A stretch of DNA of 64,000 bases, taken from NCBI GenBank assembly GCA_907163375.1, contig CAJQUW010003146.1, forward strand, positions 124,001 through 188,000, read 5' to 3'. The notes under the pieces were generated by a model. The model worked only from the letters and a program-made list of their open reading frames with translations. It had not been told where the DNA came from and did no database searches. Both the position numbers and the translations under genes were made by a program. Positions 46,974 to 64,000 of this stretch are shown here, piece after piece (position 1 is the first letter of the stretch; each line of letters opens with the position of its first letter). This stretch comes from Prostheceraeus crozeri (taxonomy: Eukaryota; Platyhelminthes; Polycladida; Euryleptidae).

Positions 46974-47274
46974 CACACAATTAGACGACCCTCGTGGTTA
47001 CGCGTGACATTACTGCTACATATGTCGGCAGTCCTGTACTACATGTGTATGTATGTATCAGAGGAGAAACAATGTGATAGGATCGCAATTTTATCCTCAG
47101 GGAAGACAGAACAAGCGAAGCGGTTCATCCGTGGTTCAAGCGACAACGCGGACAACCGTAGACGACGCGTAAACGGTTGTCACTCGCCCGGGCGTATTCC
47201 TAACATAGAGGTTGGTTATTCCTAAAGTAGTAAGTAAAACTCCACTTCTGGACCGCGCAAGATGGCCGCCGTCG

Positions 47275-50658: not shown

Positions 50659-50765
50659 TACCTATGCAAATGTGGTAAAGATAGGTTTTAGCAAAGACTA
50701 ACACGGAAAATGGCGAAACTAAAAAGTCTTCAAAGTTTTCTTCAGCCATTCAAGCTCTCCGACGA

Positions 50766-51053: not shown

Positions 51054-51084
51054 TTATGCAAATGTTGAGTCTCAAAGTAATAAA

Positions 51085-51697
51085 ATGGATTTCAGACTTC
51101 AATGTGATAAAGTTCTGACTGTATCAGGTCCATCTCATGCAGGTAAAACTGTTTTCACGCTGAATTTATTGGATAAAAGAAGGGAGTTGTTTAAGGAACC
51201 TATCAATCGAGTGATTTGGTGTTATGGTATTTATCAACCGTCGTTGTTTCAGGAATTGCAAAGTCGCAACTTTATTCGACATGAAGGATGCAGTGGATAA
51301 ACTTCAGTCTAATGATGTTGTTGTATTGGATGATTTATTAAAAGAAAGTAAGAATTCAAAAGATGTTACAGATATGTTCACTCGCGCAGCACACCATAAA
51401 AGGTGCTTTATCATCTATATCACACAAAATTTGTTTCCTGATGGAAAAGAAGCTCGTACACGAAACCTGAATACACACTATTATGCTATTTTCAAGAATC
51501 CGCGAGATAAAAGTCAATTTGAAATTTTAGCGCGACAAGTTGCACCCAGAGGATCAAAAGCCTTAATTGAAATTTTTCAAGCAGCTACTGAAAAACCACA
51601 CGGTTACTTATTCATTGACTTTACGCAAGAGTGTCCGGAAGAATTTAGATTTCGAAGTGATATTTTGAAAACTCCCATGATTATCTACAAACTATGA
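51085..51697 (+). pseudogene. FtsK/HerA-like DNA-packaging ATPase, frameshifted
   Basis: The likely start is ATG 51085 (MDFRLQ), the usual opening close to the Walker A loop. Walker A is GPSHAGKT at residues 15-22, and Walker B is VVVLDDLL in another frame near nt 51316-51339. Downstream, the FIIYITQN and AIFKNPRDKSQF blocks match packaging ATPases of Polintons and adintoviruses, which pump DNA into preformed capsids. The first frame stops at 51300, while the second is open from before 51224, so a single small indel around 51270-51295 disables the gene. Its end overlaps the next ATG by four bases (ATGA). Confidence 0.85.
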
Positions 51698-52387: not shown

Positions 52388-52570
52388 ATGAAGCAGATGT
52401 GTTGCTTGCCATGTAATGAGCCGCCAGAGGTGAATGTCGTTGTCACTTGCACTTGCTGCGCCAGCTCTCATAATGAAACCCCTAAGCAATGTGAACACGA
52501 TCGCAAAACCGCTAAAGCTAAATGCTGCAGTTGTTGTAAATGTAGAAAGGCAAGAAAGCAAAAAAGATGA
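52388..52570 (+). CDS. Cysteine-rich 60-residue protein
   Basis: Twelve cysteines in 60 residues, clustered as CC-x2-C, C-x-CC and CC-x-CC-x-C, with a basic tail (KCRKARKQKR). It starts two bases after the previous stop and its own stop overlaps the integrase start (ATGA), so it is tightly packed in the cluster. It could be a zinc- or metal-binding peptide. I do not recognise a family. Confidence 0.45.
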   Translation: MKQMCCLPCNEPPEVNVVVTCTCCASSHNETPKQCEHDRKTAKAKCCSCCKCRKARKQKR

Positions 52571-53655
52571 GAAGGAGGAAAAAGAGTCAGTCGTCATCGA
52601 CTGAACGTTTGAAATCAATCTATTATGATGTAAAACATCCGGCAGGATTTGCATCTATCAAGAAATTATCAAAAGCGAGTGATCTTCCACAATCACAAGT
52701 GAAACGATGGTTAAAGGGTCAAGCTACCTATACACTCCACAAACAAGCGAAAAAGAAGTACCGCACCCGCCATTATATTGTTCATGACATCGATGAACAG
52801 TGGCAAGCAGATTTGTGCGATGTCGCCTCCATTTCAAAACATAACTCGGGCAATAATTTTATTTTAACCGTCATTGATATTTTCTCGCGTTATGCGTGGG
52901 CTCAACCTTTAAAAACTAACGAAGGGAAAGGAGTAGCAAAATCATTCCAAACAATTTTTCGAGAAGGTCGGATTCCAAAAAGAATTCAGAGTGATCAAGG
53001 AAAAGAGTTTGAAAATCAGCATGTGAGAAGATTATTTGAGAGGCATGACATTGAGTTGTTTAGTGTAAAGAGTGCTTATAAAGCTGCACTCGTTGAACGT
53101 TTTAATCGCACATTAAAAAATCGCTTGTGGCGACATTTTACTGCGAACTTGACACAAAATTGGACAAAGGTTCTACAAGATACACTGCATGCATACAATC
53201 ACTCTATCCATCGTTCTATTGGACTCAGGCCAGTAGATGTAAATGCTGACAATGTAGATAAAGTGCGCGAATCATTCCAACGTAAACGCACTCATGTGAA
53301 AAGTGATGTGAAAATTGGTGATAAAGTTCGTATCTCAAAAGTGAAAAGTGTTTTTGCTAAAGGGTACCTTCCGAATTGGACAGAGGAGGTATTTACAGTA
53401 TCAAGGATTAATCAAAAAGACTCTCCGACCACCTACAAGTTGAAAGATTACGATAATGAAGAAATTGAGGGTAGCTTTTACCGCGATGAGATTGAGGTAG
53501 TCACTGAAAGTGAAACATATTTGGTAGAGAAAATCATTCGATGTAAAAAACGGCAAGGTGAAGAATGGTGTCTTGTTAAATGGACTGGTTATCCTTCAAG
53601 TATGAACTCTTGGATGCGTCGTGCCGACATCTTTCATCTAAGTGATCGACAGTGA
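52567..53655 (+). CDS. Polinton-type integrase (rve, DDE) with C-terminal chromodomain
   Basis: 362 residues and intact. The N-terminal region (about 12-60) is helix-turn-helix-like (LSKASDLPQSQVKRWLKG). The retroviral-type catalytic core has D82 (WQADLCD), D143 (IQSDQGKEF) and E177 (LVERFNR), a D-x60-D-x33-E spacing. Residues 318-357 form a chromodomain (YLVEKIIRCKKRQGEEWCLV, then KWTGYPSSMNSW) that may steer integration to marked chromatin. It resembles the transposon-derived C. elegans protein F54H12.3. It would insert the element's linear DNA into host chromosomes. All three acidic catalytic residues are present. Confidence 0.93.
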   Translation: MRRRKKSQSSSTERLKSIYYDVKHPAGFASIKKLSKASDLPQSQVKRWLKGQATYTLHKQAKKKYRTRHYIVHDIDEQWQADLCDVASISKHNSGNNFILTVIDIFSRYAWAQPLKTNEGKGVAKSFQTIFREGRIPKRIQSDQGKEFENQHVRRLFERHDIELFSVKSAYKAALVERFNRTLKNRLWRHFTANLTQNWTKVLQDTLHAYNHSIHRSIGLRPVDVNADNVDKVRESFQRKRTHVKSDVKIGDKVRISKVKSVFAKGYLPNWTEEVFTVSRINQKDSPTTYKLKDYDNEEIEGSFYRDEIEVVTESETYLVEKIIRCKKRQGEEWCLVKWTGYPSSMNSWMRRADIFHLSDRQ

Positions 53656-53696
53656 TTCATGCAAAGTTGTAACTAACAATGTTTAGGGTTTGAGCT

Positions 53697-54152
53697 ATGA
53701 ATCCAACTGCCTCATTTTATTCACGACCCTCCTATGTAAGTGGTGGAGGACAAATTTACATCGGCGCTCGCCGCCAACGTGGAGGTAGCATACTTGGCGC
53801 ACTGAAATATGTTGTAGCACCTCTCATATCCAATGTCGATAGATCTTTAAAACGAAATGTTTTAAGTAATGCCGTTGGCTTTGCTGGTGATGTTGCTAGT
53901 GATCTTTCCAGAGGTAGAAGTTTTAAGAGCAGTTTGTTGAATCGTGGGAAGGAACGCGGTTTAAAAATATTGAAGCAGACCTTTGCTGGTGTTACTCAAG
54001 GAAAGAAATCACCTAAACGAATGAAAAAAGGAAGGAGGAAACATCGCGGAGCTGGTAAGGTGCGATCTTCAGTCAAAAGGCATTCACGCAAACGTCGCAG
54101 AGGCTCTAATCATTCATCAGGCGCTAAACGACGACGCTGCCATAACTTCTAA
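53697..54152 (+). CDS. GG-motif virion core/membrane protein precursor (adenovirus pVI/pX-like)
   Basis: 151 residues. Residues 15-30 contain glycine pairs (SGGGQIYIGARRQRGG) that look like protease sites. They are followed by an amphipathic helix SILGALKYVVAPLISNVDRS and then a very basic C-terminal half (KKSPKRMKKGRRKHRG, VKRHSRKRRRGS) suited to DNA condensation. This combines features of adenoviral protein VI and core proteins and is common just before the capsid gene in related elements. It ends two bases before the capsid ATG. Exact cleavage sites are inferred. Confidence 0.6.
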   Translation: MNPTASFYSRPSYVSGGGQIYIGARRQRGGSILGALKYVVAPLISNVDRSLKRNVLSNAVGFAGDVASDLSRGRSFKSSLLNRGKERGLKILKQTFAGVTQGKKSPKRMKKGRRKHRGAGKVRSSVKRHSRKRRRGSNHSSGAKRRRCHNF

Positions 54153-55267: not shown

Positions 55268-55603
55268 TTTGTTATTGTGCTAAACACTCATTCGCAGAAT
55301 TTAGGCGGTGAGCATTGGAAAGCGATCTTTATTGGAGAAGACCGACGTGGTGAACTATTTGACTCTCTTGCTCAACCTCCAAATATACCAACACAGCAGT
55401 GGTTGAGAAAACATACGCGTCAATATCAGCGAAATGAACGCATACTACAACATCCACTTTCATCAACGTGTGGTGCTTTTGTACTGTACTTCATCTTAAA
55501 ACGTTTACATGTATCTCGATTTGCATCTATTATTCAAAACGTTTCATGTAATCCATCCTCTAATGAAAAAATGATTTGTAAGTTCTATCATGATTTGAAA
55601 TAA
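55268..55603 (+). CDS. Adenain-like cysteine protease, N-terminus missing
   Basis: Counting from the codon after the capsid stop: H16 (GGEHWKA), D32 (LFDSLAQ), Q61 (ILQHP) and C68 (STCGAFVLYF) give the His-Asp-Gln-Cys order of adenovirus-type maturation proteases. The usual 40-60 residues before the histidine are absent and there is no ATG in a sensible place; the only in-frame candidate is a GTG at 55277. A plausible splice acceptor with branch-like GTGCTAAAC and TTCGCAG ends at 55297, phase 0, so the N-terminus may come from another exon. Alternatives are readthrough of the capsid TGA or 5' decay. It would cleave the GG-motif precursors. Confidence 0.7.
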   Translation, partial: FVIVLNTHSQNLGGEHWKAIFIGEDRRGELFDSLAQPPNIPTQQWLRKHTRQYQRNERILQHPLSSTCGAFVLYFILKRLHVSRFASIIQNVSCNPSSNEKMICKFYHDLK

Positions 55604-55634
55604 AAACATCATGTTGGAAAAATTGTTTTTTATT
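55599..55634. terminator. Convergent poly(A) signals overlapping both stop codons
   Basis: AATAAA at 55599-55604 overlaps the protease stop on the plus strand. The inverse TTTATT at 55629-55634 overlaps the TBP-like stop on the minus strand. It separates the late-type cluster from the transcription-factor cluster. Confidence 0.65.
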
Positions 55635-56175
55635 TTACAATCCGCTGGGTACGTACATACTCAATGAGATAGTCCAGGATCACATTTGCTTGTACATGAG
55701 AGTTTAGTCCAGTAATGATCACTTTACTATTATGAAAGATTGCCACATGCACAGGTAACCAACAACTAATGAGAGCTGCAGGAAAAAGTTCGGGTTCATA
55801 ACACAAATTGTAACTGCTGGTACGAATCTTCAAAAATGATACACTTTCACTCAATTGAGTAGAGATCACCATATTGTCCACAGTCAGATTCGACATCACA
55901 CACCTCTCCCTCTTCCATATCCGACGTAGTAGTCTCTGTAGCTCTAAGCGCATTGACTGCGCCGATGAATGAGAAAGGGCGCCGAGAATCTGTACAGTCC
56001 CATTTGGGAAGAGTTGAAGATTCCGTGAATTGTTCATCTTCACCACTAACATTTGAGGACGGCCCGGGTAATACTTGCTGTTTGGAAGGTATTGGTGTAA
56101 TGTTGTGAGATCGATTTTGGTGTAGAGTCTGAAGCGACGGAGAATGTTGACGATGGTGTAGCGATGGCGCTTCAT
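55630..56175 (-). CDS. TATA-binding-protein (TBP) homologue
   Basis: 181 residues from ATG 56175, the size of a TBP core. The two-fold saddle repeat is visible. In repeat one, LPNSKYYPGRPQMLVVKM and FPNGTVQILGA correspond to the N-A-E-Y-N-P...F.SGK.V.TGA region. In repeat two, VDNMVIST (99-106) matches the QNMVGS strand, SSYNLCYEPELFPAALI (120-136) matches the YEPELFPGLI signature and KVIITGLNS (151-159) matches KVVLTGAKS. Several DNA-contacting phenylalanines appear changed. TBP nucleates RNA polymerase II pre-initiation complexes; here it could direct host polymerase to element promoters. It lies beside two PC4-like genes on the same strand. A longer, shadowing frame in another phase over 55847-56266 is not considered real. 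Confidence 0.82.
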   Translation of the reverse strand: MKRHRYTIVNILRRFRLYTKIDLTTLHQYLPNSKYYPGRPQMLVVKMNNSRNLQLFPNGTVQILGALSHSSAQSMRLELQRLLRRIWKRERCVMSNLTVDNMVISTQLSESVSFLKIRTSSYNLCYEPELFPAALISCWLPVHVAIFHNSKVIITGLNSHVQANVILDYLIEYVRTQRIVK

Positions 56176-56177
56176 GA

Positions 56178-56757
56178 TTAACAACAATGAAATTAGATAA
56201 ACGATAGATCAAATTGCCATGCAAAAGATGTGCGGCTGGTAGGATCAAACCCTCACCACCACACATCAGTTGTCAAGGCAATAATAATCAATGAATAAAT
56301 AACACGTCACAATTGTGACCGCCGACATTAAGGCAAGTAGCGGGGATCGATTGTCCACCAAAGCATCTTAAACCATGTCGTGAATGCAATTAACAACAAT
56401 GAAATTAGATAAACGATAGATCAAATTGCCATGCAAAAGATGTGCGGCTGGTAGGATACGAACCTACGACCAAGGTTAACTAGACCTGTGCTCTAACCAT
56501 CTGAGCTACGAGCCACTTACGCGACTCTGTCAGTTGGCAGGATCAAACCCTCACCACCACACATCAGTTGTCAAGGCAATAATAATCAATGAATAAATAA
56601 CACGTCACAATTGTGACCGCCGACATTAAGGCAAGTAGCGGGGATCGATTGTCCACCAAAGCATCTAAAACCATGTCGTGAATGCAATTAACAACAATGA
56701 AATTAGATAAACGATAGATCAAATTGCCATGCAAAAGATGTGCGGCTGGTAGGATGA
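56178..56757. repeat. Local duplication with three copies of a tRNA-3'-end-bearing segment
   Basis: A block starting ATTAACAACAATGAAATTAG and ending GTGCGGCTGGTAGGAT occurs at 56178, 56389 and 56687. The sequence between copies (CAAACCCTCACCACC onward) is also repeated. The first unit (211 bp) equals the second (298 bp) minus the tRNA-like body, with the deletion joining TGGTAGGAT and TGGCAGGAT. The third copy runs into the end of the second PC4-like gene and supplies its last dozen or so codons. Confidence 0.85.
56443..56516 (-). tRNA. Degraded tRNA-Thr(AGT)-like sequence
   Basis: On the minus strand the A box TAGCTCAGATGG and B box GGTTCGTATCC are present. The anticodon loop is CTAGTTA (anticodon AGT), and the T arm GTAGG/CCTAC is perfect. 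The acceptor arm pairs fully only if one inserted C is ignored, and position 27-43 is mismatched. It is probably a pseudo-tRNA of host origin. Its 3' end is repeated in the flanking duplications. Confidence 0.6.
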
Positions 56758-57074
56758 AAGAATGAGTAAATTGAGCGATGCACATTCCTTTTATACTTCT
56801 CCCAACTACCTTGATGAAATGTGAAGTTAGTATGAAGTTGGGAATGATAGAGTTGAATTCGCCGATTGTTGACGCGCAGCCAGATGCGATTTCCAATACG
56901 TGAATGTCTTTTCATATAGAAGTACTTCAAATCCTTCATGATATGATGTAGAGATTGAAAATGACGATAAGATAAAGCAAACTCTCTTCTCACATTTCCA
57001 GTTGAATCTTTGAAATAGACGTTTCGATCATGATCCGTTTCAATACGTTGTAGGGAATCTAATTTCCAACTCAT
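56703..57074 (-). CDS. PC4-like protein, copy 2 (C-terminus replaced by repeat sequence)
   Basis: 123 residues, clearly paralogous to the neighbouring gene: LDSLQRIETDHDRNVYFKDS, YRHFQSLHHIMKDLKYF, GNRIWLRVNNRRIQLYHSQ, WEKYKRNVHRSI. The first half resembles the PC4 (p15) ssDNA-binding coactivator fold, in which a G-x-(V/I)-x-F-K strand precedes a (K/R)GI-x-L-x-x-x-(Q/W) helix start; here that loop reads VRREFALSYRHF. The last residues (HPTSRTSFAWQFDL) are translated from the duplicated segment, so the natural end was lost. It starts 22 bp after the stop of copy 1. Confidence 0.5.
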   Translation of the reverse strand: MSWKLDSLQRIETDHDRNVYFKDSTGNVRREFALSYRHFQSLHHIMKDLKYFYMKRHSRIGNRIWLRVNNRRIQLYHSQLHTNFTFHQGSWEKYKRNVHRSIYSFFHPTSRTSFAWQFDLSFI

Positions 57075-57096: not shown

Positions 57097-57465
57097 TTAA
57101 GATTTGCATAGTAGGGCGACTAACTCACGACGAATAAATGTCATGATGGAGCGATGTATGTATCTTCTATACTTCTCCCAATTGTATTTGCGAAATGAGA
57201 AACAGTTTGCGGAATGAGAATGGTAGATTTGAATTTCATTTCCGTAATGTTGAAGCCAAACTTGATCACCCAAGGAGCTGAATCTTAATGTTTCAAAATA
57301 TTCCAAATCCCTCATGATATCATTGAGGTTGACAAATTGTCGCCATGTTAATGTAATACCTCTTGATGAATGACCATGAGAATTTTTGAAATGTACGTTT
57401 CCATTACGATCAACTCTGATATATTGTAGAGAGTCCAAAATCCAAGTCTTCATGATGTTATGCAA
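57097..57465 (-). CDS. PC4-like transcription coactivator/ssDNA-binding protein, copy 1
   Basis: 122 residues (a second ATG lies four codons in). LDSLQYIRVDRNGNVHFKNS followed by SRGITLTWRQFVNLNDIMRD matches the PC4 pattern of a beta strand, a GI-x-L-T/S turn and a helix. A second block (LGDQVWLQHYGNEIQIYHSH, then WEKYRRYIHRSI) is shared with copy 2 and not part of classical PC4. PC4 binds melted promoter DNA and helps activators. Next to a TBP homologue it suggests an element-encoded transcription module. It is divergent from the penton-like gene, only 23 bp apart, with an ATATAAAA stretch between. The PC4 call is by pattern and needs a profile search. Confidence 0.5.
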   Translation of the reverse strand: MHNIMKTWILDSLQYIRVDRNGNVHFKNSHGHSSRGITLTWRQFVNLNDIMRDLEYFETLRFSSLGDQVWLQHYGNEIQIYHSHSANCFSFRKYNWEKYRRYIHRSIMTFIRRELVALLCKS

Positions 57466-57488
57466 AGCCGCAGATCAGCAATATAAAA

Positions 57489-58885
57489 ATGTCGTTTTAT
57501 CATATTTTGCTTAGCAATGCGGCTACAAATAGATTTGCTAGTAATCGAGCCGCACTCTTTTCTACTCCCATTGATCATACACAACAGCTAAATGGAAGTT
57601 GGGAAGTGGGTGTCACTCAACTTGTTTATAGCAACTGTGTCTATACTTTTGATCATGAGGTGATGACTATTAATATGAGACGCACAGCTGCTTACCAATG
57701 TGAAAAGGGCTGCCGAGTATACATTCCACAGTGGGCAAAGAAAGATCTCTTATCATGTAAAAAGTTTATATATGATTTCTTGAATAAAGCGTGTAAACAT
57801 ATTGTCCAATTTACTCCGCACAATGATGATCATAATTATGTACATCATGTAGTTGAGAAAGATTGGATTGTTGGTTTAAGTCCAAGTTTAAGAAATGATT
57901 TAGGCTACCTCGCTAGCGCCTTAACAAGCTATGATAAATTTAACGTTAATTACCACATAAGTGGTCATAAGCAGTTAATATATCGAGAGGAAGCTTATTA
58001 TGTAGATCTTATTCCAAGAAATGAGAAGACGTTGGTGAAGAAGATTGTGATTAAGCCAAGAAAGACAAACATGACTCCTGAAACATTATTGAAGAAATTT
58101 AATTATCTCCTTCGAGTTGATGGTAAACAAGTGGCAACATTGACTTATATCAAATCATCTAATCAAATTGCAATAAGTAAATTGAATGATGATGATCTAG
58201 TATTAGCTTGTTCAAAAGATTTTCATCAGTTCTTACGACATCATTCTGCAGCTGTTATGGAAAATCTGATATGCAACATTTACCATGTGAAAGGTCAAAT
58301 CAATTTGATACAGAATGGGCCGTATCTTTATACAGAAAGTGTGTAGAGCCTTTAGGTGGTATCTTATATGAAACAAGAGTGTTGATGCCTCGCATTATTA
58401 CTTCGGTTAAATTGGTTGTAGATTATTTAAATGAAGTGATTAATGAGCAACATATTTCATTTTCTGAAAAAGAAGGTGTTTTGTCTCTCACTATAAGTGG
58501 AAAAGGTATTGAACTAATTATGGATAAAACTCTAATGGACATTTTGGGTTTTGATCAAAATATCTTTAAAAGTGGTACTGTAACCAAAGCTAGTGCAGAC
58601 ATGTCGCTATCGCGTCGTATTAACTATTTTCAGATATATTCCAATATTGGTGAAGATGTACGTGTGGGAGATGTTGAAGCTCCATTGCTAGCAATGATAC
58701 CATACCAGCCAAAAAGCTGCAGTATTTTATCTGAGCATACTTTCAAGAAAGTGCATTATACAAAGCTGAAATCAAACTACATCCCACAAATTGATATTGC
58801 CATTTATGACGATGCTGGTGCGTTGATTCCTTTTCATAAAGATGCTGTGACAAGTATCACACTCCATTTCCGAATGAAGAGTTAA
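57489..58885 (+). pseudogene. Penton-like/minor capsid candidate 1, frameshifted
   Basis: The first frame (57489-58346) opens YHILLSNAATNRF and has GSWEVGVTQLVYSN, the L-x-G-x-WEVG block found in a large family of Polinton-like structural proteins. The second frame (58208-58885) continues to the conserved end, QIDIAIYDDAGALIPFHKD followed by ITLHFRMKS. Comparison with the intact neighbour shows that the coding shifts between about 58262 and 58305. The C-terminal D-x-G-x-(I/V)-PF...V-T-L-H-F-R ending is typical of penton-type proteins in this group. The role as vertex protein is inferred. Confidence 0.6.
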
Positions 58886-60444
58886 TGCAAAAGTATGCTA
58901 ATATATTTTCCAATGTGAATAATATGGAAAGTGAAAATAAGGACTCGTTTCTAATCTACTTGCCCAGTAATGCTTCTATAAATAAATTTCCCAAAAATAA
59001 ACCATCAGACTATCGAGTAGAATTAAATCGTCCACTACATTTAGAAGGTGAATGGGAGGTTGGCGTTTCTAGTATTTGCTATGATAGCAATATTCAGAAT
59101 GCGAATGATTTGGAAGAAATGATATTGACTCCTCGCACCCATGATGGAATAATGATGAATAATGCATTCCAGTTCCCATACAATTTAACATCAGATGGAA
59201 AGTGGAACTATGAATGGATTCAGATAAAATCAGATTCTTATAAACCATTTGGGAATGAGAAAATTATTAAGGCATTCAATAGTGGTAATACTTCCATCAT
59301 GAAGAATAAAAATCAGAAAGCTTATGAGTTTACTATCTATCATTGGAGTGGGAGACAGTTCCTTCGCTTTCATTCTTTTACTAAAGGTCTTACACTGAGG
59401 TTGGATAATGAATTCTATCCACATCTTGGTTTTGGTCATGGACTACATCTAACGTCAATTGCTACTGCAAATGTTAAAAAAGTTTATTCAAATCGAATCA
59501 ACAAATTTCATTATAGATTTAAAATATTTGATGAAGATGTTGTAGAATGCGAAGAACGCATCATTTTAAAAAAGCGTGGTGTTCAACCTTTATCACTTAT
59601 TGAGTTAGTAAAACGATGGGATGAGACTGTGGGTAAGAAGTATGGAGAGAAAATTATGGCGGACATAAATAAGTTGGTTATTCAGAAATATAATGACAAA
59701 CTTACAGTTTATTTCTCTCCAACCTTGCGCCATTTTGTAAGACATTATACACCTATTATTGGAAGCGGTGTGGTGTATGCTTCTCATGAATATTACACTA
59801 AAGCTGATTCAGTTAATGATGAATGGTGGGTGGACATCTATGGTGATCGCATCAAGAAAATTTACCAGTCTTATCAAGAATCTAAAGTTGCTATCAATAT
59901 AATGCCGCGTCTATATCATACAGTTGAAAGCTTCATTCATGTAGTAAATCCTTATATACAACAGAAGTTGAAGCATGTGATGAAAAGTAAATATGATGTA
60001 AAGACACACCACATTTCGTTTTCAATTGAAAATCAACGCGTTGTTCTGAAACTGGGCGATGACATTCAATGTCAATTGAGTAAAAATTTGAAAAAACTCT
60101 TTGGTTTTTCAATGCTACAAACTGTGTTTACTGCTGCGCATACGATTGGTATAGAAACTCCAATGACACTTGATAAACATGAACAGCACCTTTACATTCA
60201 AAGTGATTTGATTCTACCTATTTCTGTTGGTGAGAAAAAAGAATACATTTTACGTGATTTCATTCATGATAAAGACGCTTCATATGGAATAGTCGAGAAG
60301 ATGTTTGAATCTATTTTCTATCATCCCGTCATCAAACAAACTATACCCTCTATTGCTATCAAAATTACCAATGGTTTACAAGAGTGCATCCATGTGAAAG
60401 ATACTAAATCCCTCGTAACTTTAGTGTTTCGGAAAACAAAGTGA
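58885..60444 (+). CDS. Penton-like/minor capsid candidate 2
   Basis: 519 residues from the first ATG (which overlaps the previous stop as TAATG), or 506 from the better start at 58924 (MESENKDSFLIYLPSNAS). NKPSDYRVELNRPLHLEGEW followed by EVGVSSICYD is the conserved N-terminal domain. The tandem relationship to the gene before it is plain, also in LRHFVRHYTPI and the KKLFGF block. The C-terminus (IKITNGLQECIHVKDT, LVTLVFRKTK) is a weaker version of the family ending. It is intact. Two adjacent members suggest subunits of different vertices, or a penton plus a spike-like relative. Confidence 0.6.
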   Translation: MQKYANIFSNVNNMESENKDSFLIYLPSNASINKFPKNKPSDYRVELNRPLHLEGEWEVGVSSICYDSNIQNANDLEEMILTPRTHDGIMMNNAFQFPYNLTSDGKWNYEWIQIKSDSYKPFGNEKIIKAFNSGNTSIMKNKNQKAYEFTIYHWSGRQFLRFHSFTKGLTLRLDNEFYPHLGFGHGLHLTSIATANVKKVYSNRINKFHYRFKIFDEDVVECEERIILKKRGVQPLSLIELVKRWDETVGKKYGEKIMADINKLVIQKYNDKLTVYFSPTLRHFVRHYTPIIGSGVVYASHEYYTKADSVNDEWWVDIYGDRIKKIYQSYQESKVAINIMPRLYHTVESFIHVVNPYIQQKLKHVMKSKYDVKTHHISFSIENQRVVLKLGDDIQCQLSKNLKKLFGFSMLQTVFTAAHTIGIETPMTLDKHEQHLYIQSDLILPISVGEKKEYILRDFIHDKDASYGIVEKMFESIFYHPVIKQTIPSIAIKITNGLQECIHVKDTKSLVTLVFRKTK

Positions 60445-60623: not shown

Positions 60624-63600
60624 TTATGTCAATACATCTCCTGAATGTGGTAGCGTGAGTTTTATTCTTTTGGGTAGAGGTATGTTTGTGTCAGGATGTC
60701 CATGTGGAAGAGATGTGTTATGACCTATCCAACACCTCTTATCTTCCCATGCTGAAAGTGCTCGTTTCTTGAACGTGTGCGTTTTCACAGTATGAACTTG
60801 AGATTTTAAGATTGTCATATTGACAAACGTTATAGTTTTATTTTTATAGGCCTTCTTATAGGACCGATGTTTCATTTTGTAAACAATGGATTTTGATATA
60901 CCTTTAGCACGCTTAATACTATCTGCACATTCTTTTAATTTCATGGAATACATTTTAGGACGGAGGAGAATCATTTCATCTATTTCCTTTCCTGCTGTTT
61001 CATCCTTAAAACAACCAAGTTTGGCTTTATTCTGTATGGAATAGAGTGGATGAGTGGGATTGTAGTTAGATGTGTCGAAATATTTTTCTAATGACTTGCC
61101 TACTTCATTAAAATTTAAATCTTTTTGAGTGGTAATTTCTAAAAAGAAACTATCTGTATCACCACCCAGCAAGCGAACCTCTTTTACGAGAGGGCATGGT
61201 TTTATTTTAATATTTTGTAGAAGAGTTGATACATTTCAAGCTTGGAATAATCTAAAACGGCTTGGCCAATATAGATGGGTTTGCACAACTCAACTTCTGA
61301 TTTAATCATTTTAACACCTACAAGATCCTCATCGATGATGTCTCTATCAATGAAAAGAGGTGATGAGGTCAATTTGTGATATTTTTGTTCATCAACGACT
61401 AGTTTGTAGTTCATACGTTTTCTGACATCCTCCATGGTCTTTCCGAAAAGACTGTTATTCTTATATTTATAAAAATCCTTTTCAAAATTATTTTGGGCGA
61501 GTGCACGTTTTTGACTGTTACTATCTATGTAGGGTTTGAAGAAGGCTTTCTGTCTAAATTTGATAATACGGTGAACTGACTTTAGAAGCATGCCCATTTC
61601 TAAATAGAATTTTAATATGCAGAAGTGTACGAGATACTTTTTCTTATCATATTGGGTGAGTAAAAGTTTACGGCATGGTTTGTACCTTGGCTGTCCACAC
61701 TCTGTTAAGTTATTATGAAATTGTGACATGAATGGTGAAAACATATCTTCAGTCACTTCACCAGATTCAGGTGAGAGTGGGAAATCAGCAGTTTTATTTT
61801 TAATGCTATTTGGATAAATCAAATCCACTTCAAAATAATATCCCCAATCACCTTCATCTGGAATCTTCAGTATGTTTGAAGGGTTGGAGTAATACTCAAG
61901 CTCATCTTGATTTAACCAACTAAACTCGGAATGAGGTAGTGGTTTAGACAGTGAACTGCCATATAAATTATTTTGGTCATAGTACTTTAGGTGGATATGA
62001 TCATCACCTACTGTTTCAGATTTTATATGATGTTTATTTACAAATGTGAGACCACCACGTATTCCACGCTCAAATATATTATACATCTCCGGGTCTTGTA
62101 AGAGATGAATGGTCTCACCAGTCATTTTAAAGGCTGATTTAAAGGACATGGCTGGTAGACTGAGAAAGTGGACAGGATCTAATTTGTCTTCTTCTAATGC
62201 CACTCGTCGAAATTCGTGAAAGACATCAGCCAGCAAAATGACATCTAATTCTAAGTAAGCGATCATATAATCGCCAAACGTTTTACAATCAAATTTTAAC
62301 CATGCCTCTTGAGCATGTTCATAGTCCTCTACTGGACAATATTCACCCGTCAAATCGTTTTTGAATTTGTTAATGGAAGGAAGGGTTGTTTCATTTAGTT
62401 TAGACATTGAGCTAAAATACGCATAAGGAAAGACTCCTTTGCGAGTGATCATGTCATCCGTTAAGTTTGGATAGTGTTTCTTCAAAGTTTGACTATGGGG
62501 AAGAAACTTGAGATTTCGAACGAGCGAAGCTAGTGACGCTGACATGAATTGAAATGAATCTAAAAATTTTATTTCGAAGAAGACTGTCTTATTTTCTTTA
62601 GTTTTATCTACTGGTACTTTTGCTGTCATTGCCATGAATTTTTCTCTCGTTTGTGCTATAACATTGAACTGCCACGATTTCATCTGGCTCAACCCTCCTT
62701 TTATGAGCATATGACTGTCATAGCCCTTAAAGTTATGAAAAATGACGGGTAGTACACGACGTCTCAACCTAAGTGAAAAGTTACATTTGGAGCAGAGTGC
62801 GTTTCTAAATTTACCAGTGATGTGATCATGATCACGCACTTTCTTAATTTTATCATCATCAAACGTTTTATGACATTTAGGGCACGATGTGCAACTTTCA
62901 AATTTCTGTTTGTCTTCATCTGACATATGTAGTGACTTACGCTGCAATTGGGAATCATATGATTGTTGAAATTTAGCAGCTTTATCGAGAAATTCTAGAA
63001 ATTTTGAAATACAATCTTCACCTTGCCAAGTATGCATTTTGTTTTGTCTATTCCTAAAGTGGTCATGCCATACTTCATAGCAGGATATGGCTGCTGGCTT
63101 GTGGATGATATCATCAATGTAGCATTCTATGTCTGCGTAAATGACACGCAGGGGACTTAATTCGTCACCATTATCCCTATGTGAAAATATTTTATCTTTG
63201 GGCATGCGTTCCATTTGTAATTTACCTCGCTTGCACCATTCATAGTGAGTTTCAAATTTATCTTTACTCCAAAAGGAGCGGATGCAGCGGTCGCATACAA
63301 AATGTTCACCTCTTTTAGAGTGCCCCAAGTGAGTGTACAAGCGAGAGATTTTGGGAATACCACAGTAGTGCCATTCCTCGCTATCATCTTGTTTTACTAA
63401 TAAGAGGTTGACTACACGTTCATAACAAGTTGAACGTGAATTATAGCGGGCACCCTTCAACCCCTTCTACCACACGTGAACGACAATTTTAATCTTATTA
63501 TGTTTTTCGAACGTTTCTACATCTTTGATTTTCATGTTGTCACTATCACAACCTTCAAAGTCTAGTTCATCCTCCCACTGTCTATAGCTATAGGTGCGAT

Positions 63601-64000
63601 CTCGATGCGCGTTGATATCATTATAGTGAAGGATGGATAGGACTGCATATTTGAAACACTGTGATTTACAATCGACATTGATGACAGCTTTCTTATTATA
63701 CAACGTTTTTGGTAGTTTAAATGTGCCTCGAGCTGCATGACTTTCTAATAGGGAAATTTTGAATATGGCTGAGTCCACACCATCAAAAATGAGAGCGCTG
63801 TCGCGTTGATTGAATTTATCTACATTTGATTTTAAACATTGAATGTGAAAATTTAGCCAAGACTCGCAGTCTACAACTTCGGTTGCGGAAGAGGAAGGAA
63901 CATGAAACTGTATTCTCTCCGTCACTTGACCCGTTTGAAAATCTATTTTAATATATTTTAGTTTAAGGTAGATGAGCGCCTTCATTCTAAAATTGTCTAA
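60624..64000 (-). pseudogene. Protein-primed family B DNA polymerase, three broken segments, 5' end beyond window
   Basis: The order on the minus strand is as follows. The N-terminal region runs from the edge to 63467 (KAVINVDC, CFKYAVLSILHYNDINAHRD). An in-frame TAG sits at 63467-63469, with the same frame continuing after it. The main segment (63460-61202) has a zinc-finger pair (CDRCIRSF, then HYEWC), exonuclease I (VIYADIECY), an endonuclease-VII-like insert (CPKCHKTF, VRDHDHITGKFRNALCSKCN), exonuclease II (HNFKGYDSH) and exonuclease III (YLELDVILLADVF). Its palm motifs are A (YYDQNNLYGSSLS) and B (YKNNSLFGKTMED). A frameshift lies between 61202 and about 61180. The last segment (61172-60624) carries motif C (GGDTDSFF, with G for the usual Y) and the thumb. 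It is typical of Polintons, which copy linear DNA from a protein primer. All catalytic aspartates are visible, but the gene is dead. Confidence 0.92.

Follow-up and report, generated by a model that had tools for sequence, protein, structure and literature searches.

Why should a small mobile element of a flatworm carry a gene for the TATA-binding protein (TBP)? The question is raised by a locus in Prostheceraeus crozeri (64,000 nt of contig CAJQUW010003146.1, positions 124,001-188,000 of the forward strand, referred to below as the window), in which a Polinton-like element encodes a TBP homologue that we call vTBP. On the best-supported reading, the protein is a viral TBP, old and conserved, with which the element directs host RNA polymerase II (Pol II). 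More fully, and with a probability that we put at roughly 0.65, vTBP belongs to the regular gene set of a high-copy Polinton-like lineage and is expressed early from a TATA-initiator promoter, and its product would act through a changed saddle to recruit TFIIB and Pol II, probably together with proteins of putative PUR/PC4 fold.

That vTBP is a bona fide, though strongly diverged, TBP is clear from a match far beyond chance. The initial annotation had recognised the length and two repeats of a TBP core, with the near-signature blocks NMVIS, YEPELFP and KVIITG, in a gene carried by a Polinton/adintovirus-like element, and had proposed a profile search and a structure prediction; both bear it out. 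The frame is free of stops and its translation carries all three blocks. The Pfam TBP profile (PF00352) matches it in two stretches (E 2.2e-19, scoring 69.5 bits where the cut-off is 22.9), and a sequence search of the PDB at E<=10 gave 35 distinct chain sequences, among them archaeal, yeast and human TBP chains, the top match being an archaeal TBP (2.7e-11). An AlphaFold2 model of the 181-residue product, built from 43 sequences, shows the TBP saddle with a mean pLDDT (predicted local distance difference test) of 95.2. When this model was compared with the PDB, the 44 best matches (E<=3.4e-9) all proved to be chains of TBP or of its fusions; for human TBP (1cdw) the TM score was 0.78. Among the viral models of BFVD, the best matches were an unnamed 189-residue protein and giant-virus TBPs, with herpesvirus U58 lower; a PHROGs search with vTBP gave no match.

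Is this a gene of the element, or is it a TBP-related gene or exon of the host, present here by chance or through a single trapping event in one copy? TBP is, after all, a cellular gene. A search of the 2.05-Gb genome (14,165 contigs) with the vTBP protein gave at least 150 scored matches at 98-100% identity, 149 of the 150 being stop-free; this count is a lower bound, as scoring covered the top 150 of 11,869 first-look candidates. These matches lie at different places, with element genes as neighbours in the loci examined, and six 8-kb stretches around copies of this kind (family 1; two of the six at places already sampled) have the gene order of the window. A host TBP exon was rejected on this copy number and gene neighbourhood, and the wider idea of a host gene at this place is hardly credible when one also considers the second family, the relatives elsewhere and the long branch to cellular TBPs described below. 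As a side observation, the near-identical, high-copy elements include several pairs lying a few kilobases to 15 kb apart (for example C5587, C2952, C9104).

A query from another lineage, again with the best 150 matches scored (three with an internal stop), brought out seven copies of a second family, whose TBP is 43-45% identical to that of the window. In all seven a PolB-like gene, 53-65% identical to that of the window element, is matched 1.4-2.3 kb from the TBP gene. The capsid, ATPase and integrase genes used as queries were found neither in seven 8-kb stretches of family 2 nor in additional flanking sequence from two of these. With its TBP, PUR-like and PolB-like genes, the second family (L041-L047, L054-L057) is possibly a capsid-less or satellite element.

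Outside this genome, 60 relatives of vTBP were found at E<=0.001, all 60 with a Pfam TBP domain and 14 of them on contigs of more than 5000 nt. No relatives were found in IMG/VR with TBP, capsid, PUR-like and integrase queries, or in GTDB genomes with TBP and capsid queries. In the lists of relatives obtained elsewhere (for the capsid-like protein, 120 of 204 matches), contigs of equal size recur: 5702 and 20463 nt for TBP and capsid, 1771 nt for TBP and PUR-like, and 12876 and 11119 nt for PUR-like and capsid. Jittering the sizes by 5% gave at least two TBP/capsid matches in 427 of 5000 trials when contigs of every size were used (17 of 5000 above 5000 nt), at least one TBP/PUR-like match in 219 of 5000, and two PUR-like/capsid matches in 3 of 5000; equal sizes of this kind are supportive and no proof of co-location.

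The residues of vTBP suggest what kind of TBP it may be. We aligned 43 sequences, including that of the window, against yeast TBP, whose numbering and residue roles we take to be as used here. F116, F190, F207, N159, T215 and E188 are kept in all 43, E186 in 42, and N69 wherever its column is present (37 sequences). Canonical TBP has four DNA-kinking phenylalanines; three are retained throughout the family and the fourth, F99, is proline in all 43, so that vTBP is better described as a divergent TBP-family protein than as a canonical TBP. V122 is glutamine and V203 histidine in every member, T124 is leucine, methionine or phenylalanine (43 of 43), and L114 is glutamine in 40 of 43. These fixed changes lie mostly in the N-terminal repeat, where DNA-contact residues are altered, and the YEPEL block that faces TFIIB is retained. 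Binding of TATA DNA and of TFIIB is predicted from residues. The initial annotation had suggested an altered promoter preference: the changed contact residues on which it drew prove to be fixed across the family, and it is from these residues that a changed preference may be read.

The same annotation had pictured the gene as a capture of TBP, a view that the comparison does not support. In a tree of the 43 sequences whose only other members were four cellular TBPs (one each from yeast and human, two from archaea), the whole vTBP family falls on one side of the cellular proteins, with support of 100/100 and a very long branch. The window protein is 21.7% identical with human TBP and 21.1% with that of yeast; for the archaea M. 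jannaschii and P. woesei the values are 25.9% and 25.2%. The long branch and the single clade of 43 speak against recent capture from the host.

How might the vTBP gene itself be expressed? Upstream of its start, the family loci have TATAAAA followed by CATT, the A lying 32 nt after the first T. This spacing is found in 43 of 44 family-1 loci (39 by an anchored count, together with L005, L009, L021 and L030; L037 lacks it) and in seven of seven family-2 loci. The pattern recurs in the translated N-terminal extensions of relatives: in nine of 11 picked by a script, an Ile-Lys stands 13-14 residues ahead of the start, with His exactly ten residues further on. Within 48-64 kb of the window, TATA with TCA[GT]T after it occurs twice, against 0.22 expected, the other occurrence being inside the capsid gene. 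In the window copy, a private insertion separates the TATA box from the vTBP ATG. The host-readable combination of TATA box and initiator would probably drive vTBP early.

A different box precedes several other genes. When 7-mers were counted in the 20-60 nt ahead of 15 gene starts, ATGCAAA was the commonest, present at four of the starts as first listed (random placements reached at least four in 73 of 5000 trials) and at six after two starts had been moved (six being reached in 1 of 5000); the box had been seen by eye before the test and the starts were moved afterwards, one backed by a longer frame in another copy and the other by similarity to a neighbouring gene. In another copy, the PolB gene has the box 83 nt upstream. 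Two readings of this box may be considered. It may be bound by a host POU/octamer factor and not by vTBP, a reading that concerns the box only and is compatible with our preferred explanation. The octamer motif is ATGCAAAT, of which ATGCAAA matches the core, and the spacing to the ATG varies (29-46 nt, or 83 nt for PolB in the other copy); set against this, the box stands before six genes in gene orientation and at a roughly TATA-like distance. We regard octamer binding as plausible, at somewhat less than even odds. Alternatively, vTBP might prefer ATGCAAA itself, in a two-stage programme run by a minimal pre-initiation complex of the element's own. In it, early vTBP would replace host TBP and read this box where a TATA box would stand before structural and replication genes, the fixed Pro, Gln and Leu residues of its N-terminal repeat accepting G:C pairs. 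A switch to an ATGCAAA-type promoter is offered only as a bold hypothesis drawn from sequence, and the programme as a whole is doubtful.

Upstream of vTBP lie two genes, PURa and PURb, for proteins of PUR/PC4-like character. A second open frame covers much of vTBP; in 35 of the 44 loci of family 1, PURb runs on into this frame, which forms its C-terminal tail, the same DNA coding twice. The tail frame over TBP is open in two families (L002, 1179-1829; L043, 3690-4319). In five loci (L005, L006, L009, L021, L030), the PURb frame is cut upstream and opens just before KYKR, the tail frame over TBP staying open. The TBP/PURb overlap, if true, is an unusual dual-coding pair of transcription-type proteins; in the two-stage view, the acidic tail overprinted on the TBP gene would lock the two proteins together genetically.

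For the element as a whole, then, we envisage that bound vTBP, having recognised element promoters through its changed saddle, would recruit host TFIIB and Pol II, probably assisted by the two proteins of putative PUR/PC4 fold encoded beside it, and that the element in this way probably directs the host transcription machinery to its own genes. Several observations weigh against this picture. A Foldseek search with the PUR-like protein gave no match at E<=0.001, and no sequence library gives it a name: at E<=10 nothing labelled PUR or PC4 came up, though such searches can overlook distant relatives. The TATA box overlaps the PURb codons for K-Y-K-R and may be conserved in part for the protein's sake (at the matching position PURa has TATAGAAG), and the loci that bear it are related by descent. 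The 11 ATGCAAA sites in 48-64 kb (six upstream of genes, three in the private insertion, two elsewhere) are not exceptional for 16 kb, a model giving a mean of 5.7 and a maximum of 12 in 100 runs, and none was found near gene starts in the family-2 stretches scanned (L043, L054, L055). The TBP variant counts are biased, since copies were picked for the similarity of their TBP proteins, which pushes the TBP ratios downwards: among 44 loci, TBP variants common to at least three comprise seven nonsynonymous, six synonymous and one stop (per-site ratio 0.34), and rarer ones 64, 50 and four (0.37); the shared and rarer ratios are 0.08 and 0.41 for PURb, and 0.75 and 0.50 for PURa (43 loci each). 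Finally, no TBP is listed for the relatives that have capsid and PUR-like proteins, by equal size, on contigs of 12,876 and 11,119 nt; some relatives may therefore lack the gene, or have it in broken or unpredicted form.

Could vTBP do something other than serve the element's promoters? As a decoy, it would occupy host TFIIB, TBP-associated factors (TAFs) or TATA boxes, and so shut down or redirect host transcription without recognising element promoters. A retained TFIIB-facing YEPEL block beside changed DNA contacts in the N-terminal repeat is what such a protein might show, but the DNA-contact residues F116, F190, F207, N159 and T215 are still invariant, and a common box lies upstream of several element genes; we consider a decoy unlikely. 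Bending of DNA by vTBP might instead serve replication or packaging at element ends or origins, with the PUR-like proteins as single-strand binders. PUR/PC4 folds do bind single strands, and family 2 combines TBP, PUR-like and PolB genes in stretches where the queried capsid, ATPase and integrase genes were not found. The TBP fold, the kept TFIIB-facing residues and the promoter-type boxes before several genes argue instead for transcription, and make a role in replication or packaging improbable.

The features of the window element are collected in the table. The element occupies at least 16 kb, its right end lying outside the window, and no inverted partner of its left end was found in the stretches compared. 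The context of vTBP proposed in the initial annotation holds up well: an integrase with chromodomain, and protease-like and capsid-like genes with weaker matches, flank vTBP. A double-jelly-roll-like domain was matched weakly in three of 28 capsid-like relatives (best E 5e-4), and a PDB profile search with the capsid-like protein gave nothing relevant. The protease matches C48 at 8.5e-4 and 0.0011, just under the cut-off, and adenovirus C5 at 0.044; the ATPase-like frames match AAA_22 at only 0.16. In the PolB-like frames, endonuclease VII is matched by Pfam (2.2e-6), and by eye we see what we take to be exonuclease and polymerase motifs, such as GDTDS; no Pfam polymerase model was matched at E<=1 in the window element or family 2, and a PDB search with these frames gave no polymerase.

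Locus comparisons, made on one strand, gave rows for 11 of 20 loci. In ten of the 11, vTBP joins PURb without the insertion, which has tandem repeats (56237-56457 and 56535-56755) and about 6 nt matched on both sides. Where the capsid and protease genes meet, ten of the 11 have about 306 nt that are missing from the window copy, one locus ending short. Further gene families are, by eye, apparently common to both element families (L043, 1345-1818; L054, 8341-8832; L055, 7487-7960), and 49331-49861 and 49922-50332 are window members of two such families. A capsid-like protein of a close relative (P0067) is annotated in a bacterial metagenome-assembled genome (AAGK05_12265), which is probably mis-binned eukaryotic or viral DNA.

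Table. Positions, in window coordinates, of the element's genes and predicted signals
Feature	Position	Strand	Basis or remark
Left end of element (AGTAGTAAGTAAAACTCC)	47226..47243	+	homology to one other copy (C20) stops there
ATGCAAA box	50664..50670	+	46 nt before ATG at 50710
ATGCAAA box	51056..51062	+	29 nt before ATPase-like ATG at 51085
Packaging-ATPase-like, two overlapping frames	51085..51697	+	Walker A GPSHAGKT by eye
Integrase (rve) with C-terminal chromodomain	52567..53655	+	Pfam 7.8e-11 and 5.5e-7
ATGCAAA box	53659..53665	+	38 nt before core-like gene
Basic core-like protein	53697..54152	+	open frame; also present in other copies
Capsid-like protein, 370 residues	54155..55267	+	relatives mostly 424-427 residues; double-jelly-roll model weak
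Adenain/C48-like cysteine protease, N-terminal part missing in window copy	55277..55603	+	Pfam
vTBP, 181 residues and stop, two TBP repeats	55630..56175	-	open frame, Pfam, PDB, AlphaFold2 model
Second open frame over vTBP	55847..56266	-	C-terminal tail of PURb in relatives
Private insertion, about 570 nt, directly upstream of vTBP start	56182..56752		absent in 10 of 11 loci compared
tRNA-Thr(AGT)-like sequence inside insertion	56442..56516	-	ARAGORN; Rfam tRNA 37.2 bits, low score
PURb, second PUR/PC4-like gene	56703..57074	-	frame broken by insertion in window copy
Predicted vTBP core promoter: TATAAAAGG, then initiator-like CA	56761..56795	-	spacing in copies
PURa, PUR/PC4-like protein	57097..57453	-	sequence and prediction (bbbba-bbbba)
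ATGCAAA box	57103..57109	-	35 nt before PURb
ATGCAAA box	57460..57466	+	29 nt before gene 57489
Gene 57489, two overlapping frames in window copy	57489..58885	+	open frames, other copies
Gene 58885	58885..60444	+	partly similar to gene 57489 (35-36% over about 65 residues)
ATGCAAA box	58885..58891	+	39 nt before ATG at 58924
PolB-like frames with endonuclease VII domain, in pieces	60624..64000	-	extending past window

How does this compare with what is known? With Mavericks/Polintons and adintoviruses the element shares an integrase and, as candidates, PolB-, protease-, capsid- and ATPase-like genes. The initial annotation knew of no standard Polinton or adintovirus gene list that includes TBP, in agreement with the eight Maverick core genes named in PMC8097293, which include none. 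Open-licence literature on Polintons, Mavericks and adintoviruses yielded no report of TBP in such elements, and the TBP terms searched for were absent from two 2024 preprints on related viruses and from PMC4642659 and PMC10120064. Viruses known to have a TBP were giant viruses, mirusviruses and herpesviruses. A TBP consisting of the core alone, in an element as small as this Polinton-like one, would show that small elements can also own promoter recognition; it bears on where viral TBPs came from, and offers a small, testable system for a change of TBP specificity, with one protein, fixed residue changes and candidate boxes.

PURa and PURb show no detected sequence similarity to the single-strand binders PUR-alpha and PC4, and the PURb tail differs in overlapping TBP. 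Cellular TBP (PF00352), a subunit of TFIID, has the same two-repeat saddle as vTBP and shares many DNA- and TFIIB-contact residues; vTBP differs in its 21-26% identity to the four TBPs used, its proline at F99, its coding by a mobile element and, in the aligned rows shown, in lacking one or two residues between two strands of either repeat. Giant viruses and mirusviruses also carry TBP but have large genomes: PMC10132985 gives TBP genes in 59% of mirusvirus genomes, and PMC11464507, PMC12085832 and PMC4602308 mention TBP for giant or algal viruses and not for Polintons. Among the fold matches listed, giant-virus TBPs are 6-20% identical to vTBP and usually longer. The best functional precedent is the TBP mimics of beta- and gamma-herpesviruses (BcRF1, UL87, ORF24, U58), which likewise have a viral TBP fold; U58 of elephant herpesvirus matches vTBP by fold (E 4.8e-4). 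According to PMC7498053, ORF24 takes the place of TBP at late promoters with a TATT box, and is a large protein whose N-terminal domain binds the C-terminal domain of Pol II, with the motif RLLLG. vTBP differs from ORF24, UL87 and BcRF1 in box and virus group and in being a TBP core alone, without RLLLG, so that it would need TFIIB.
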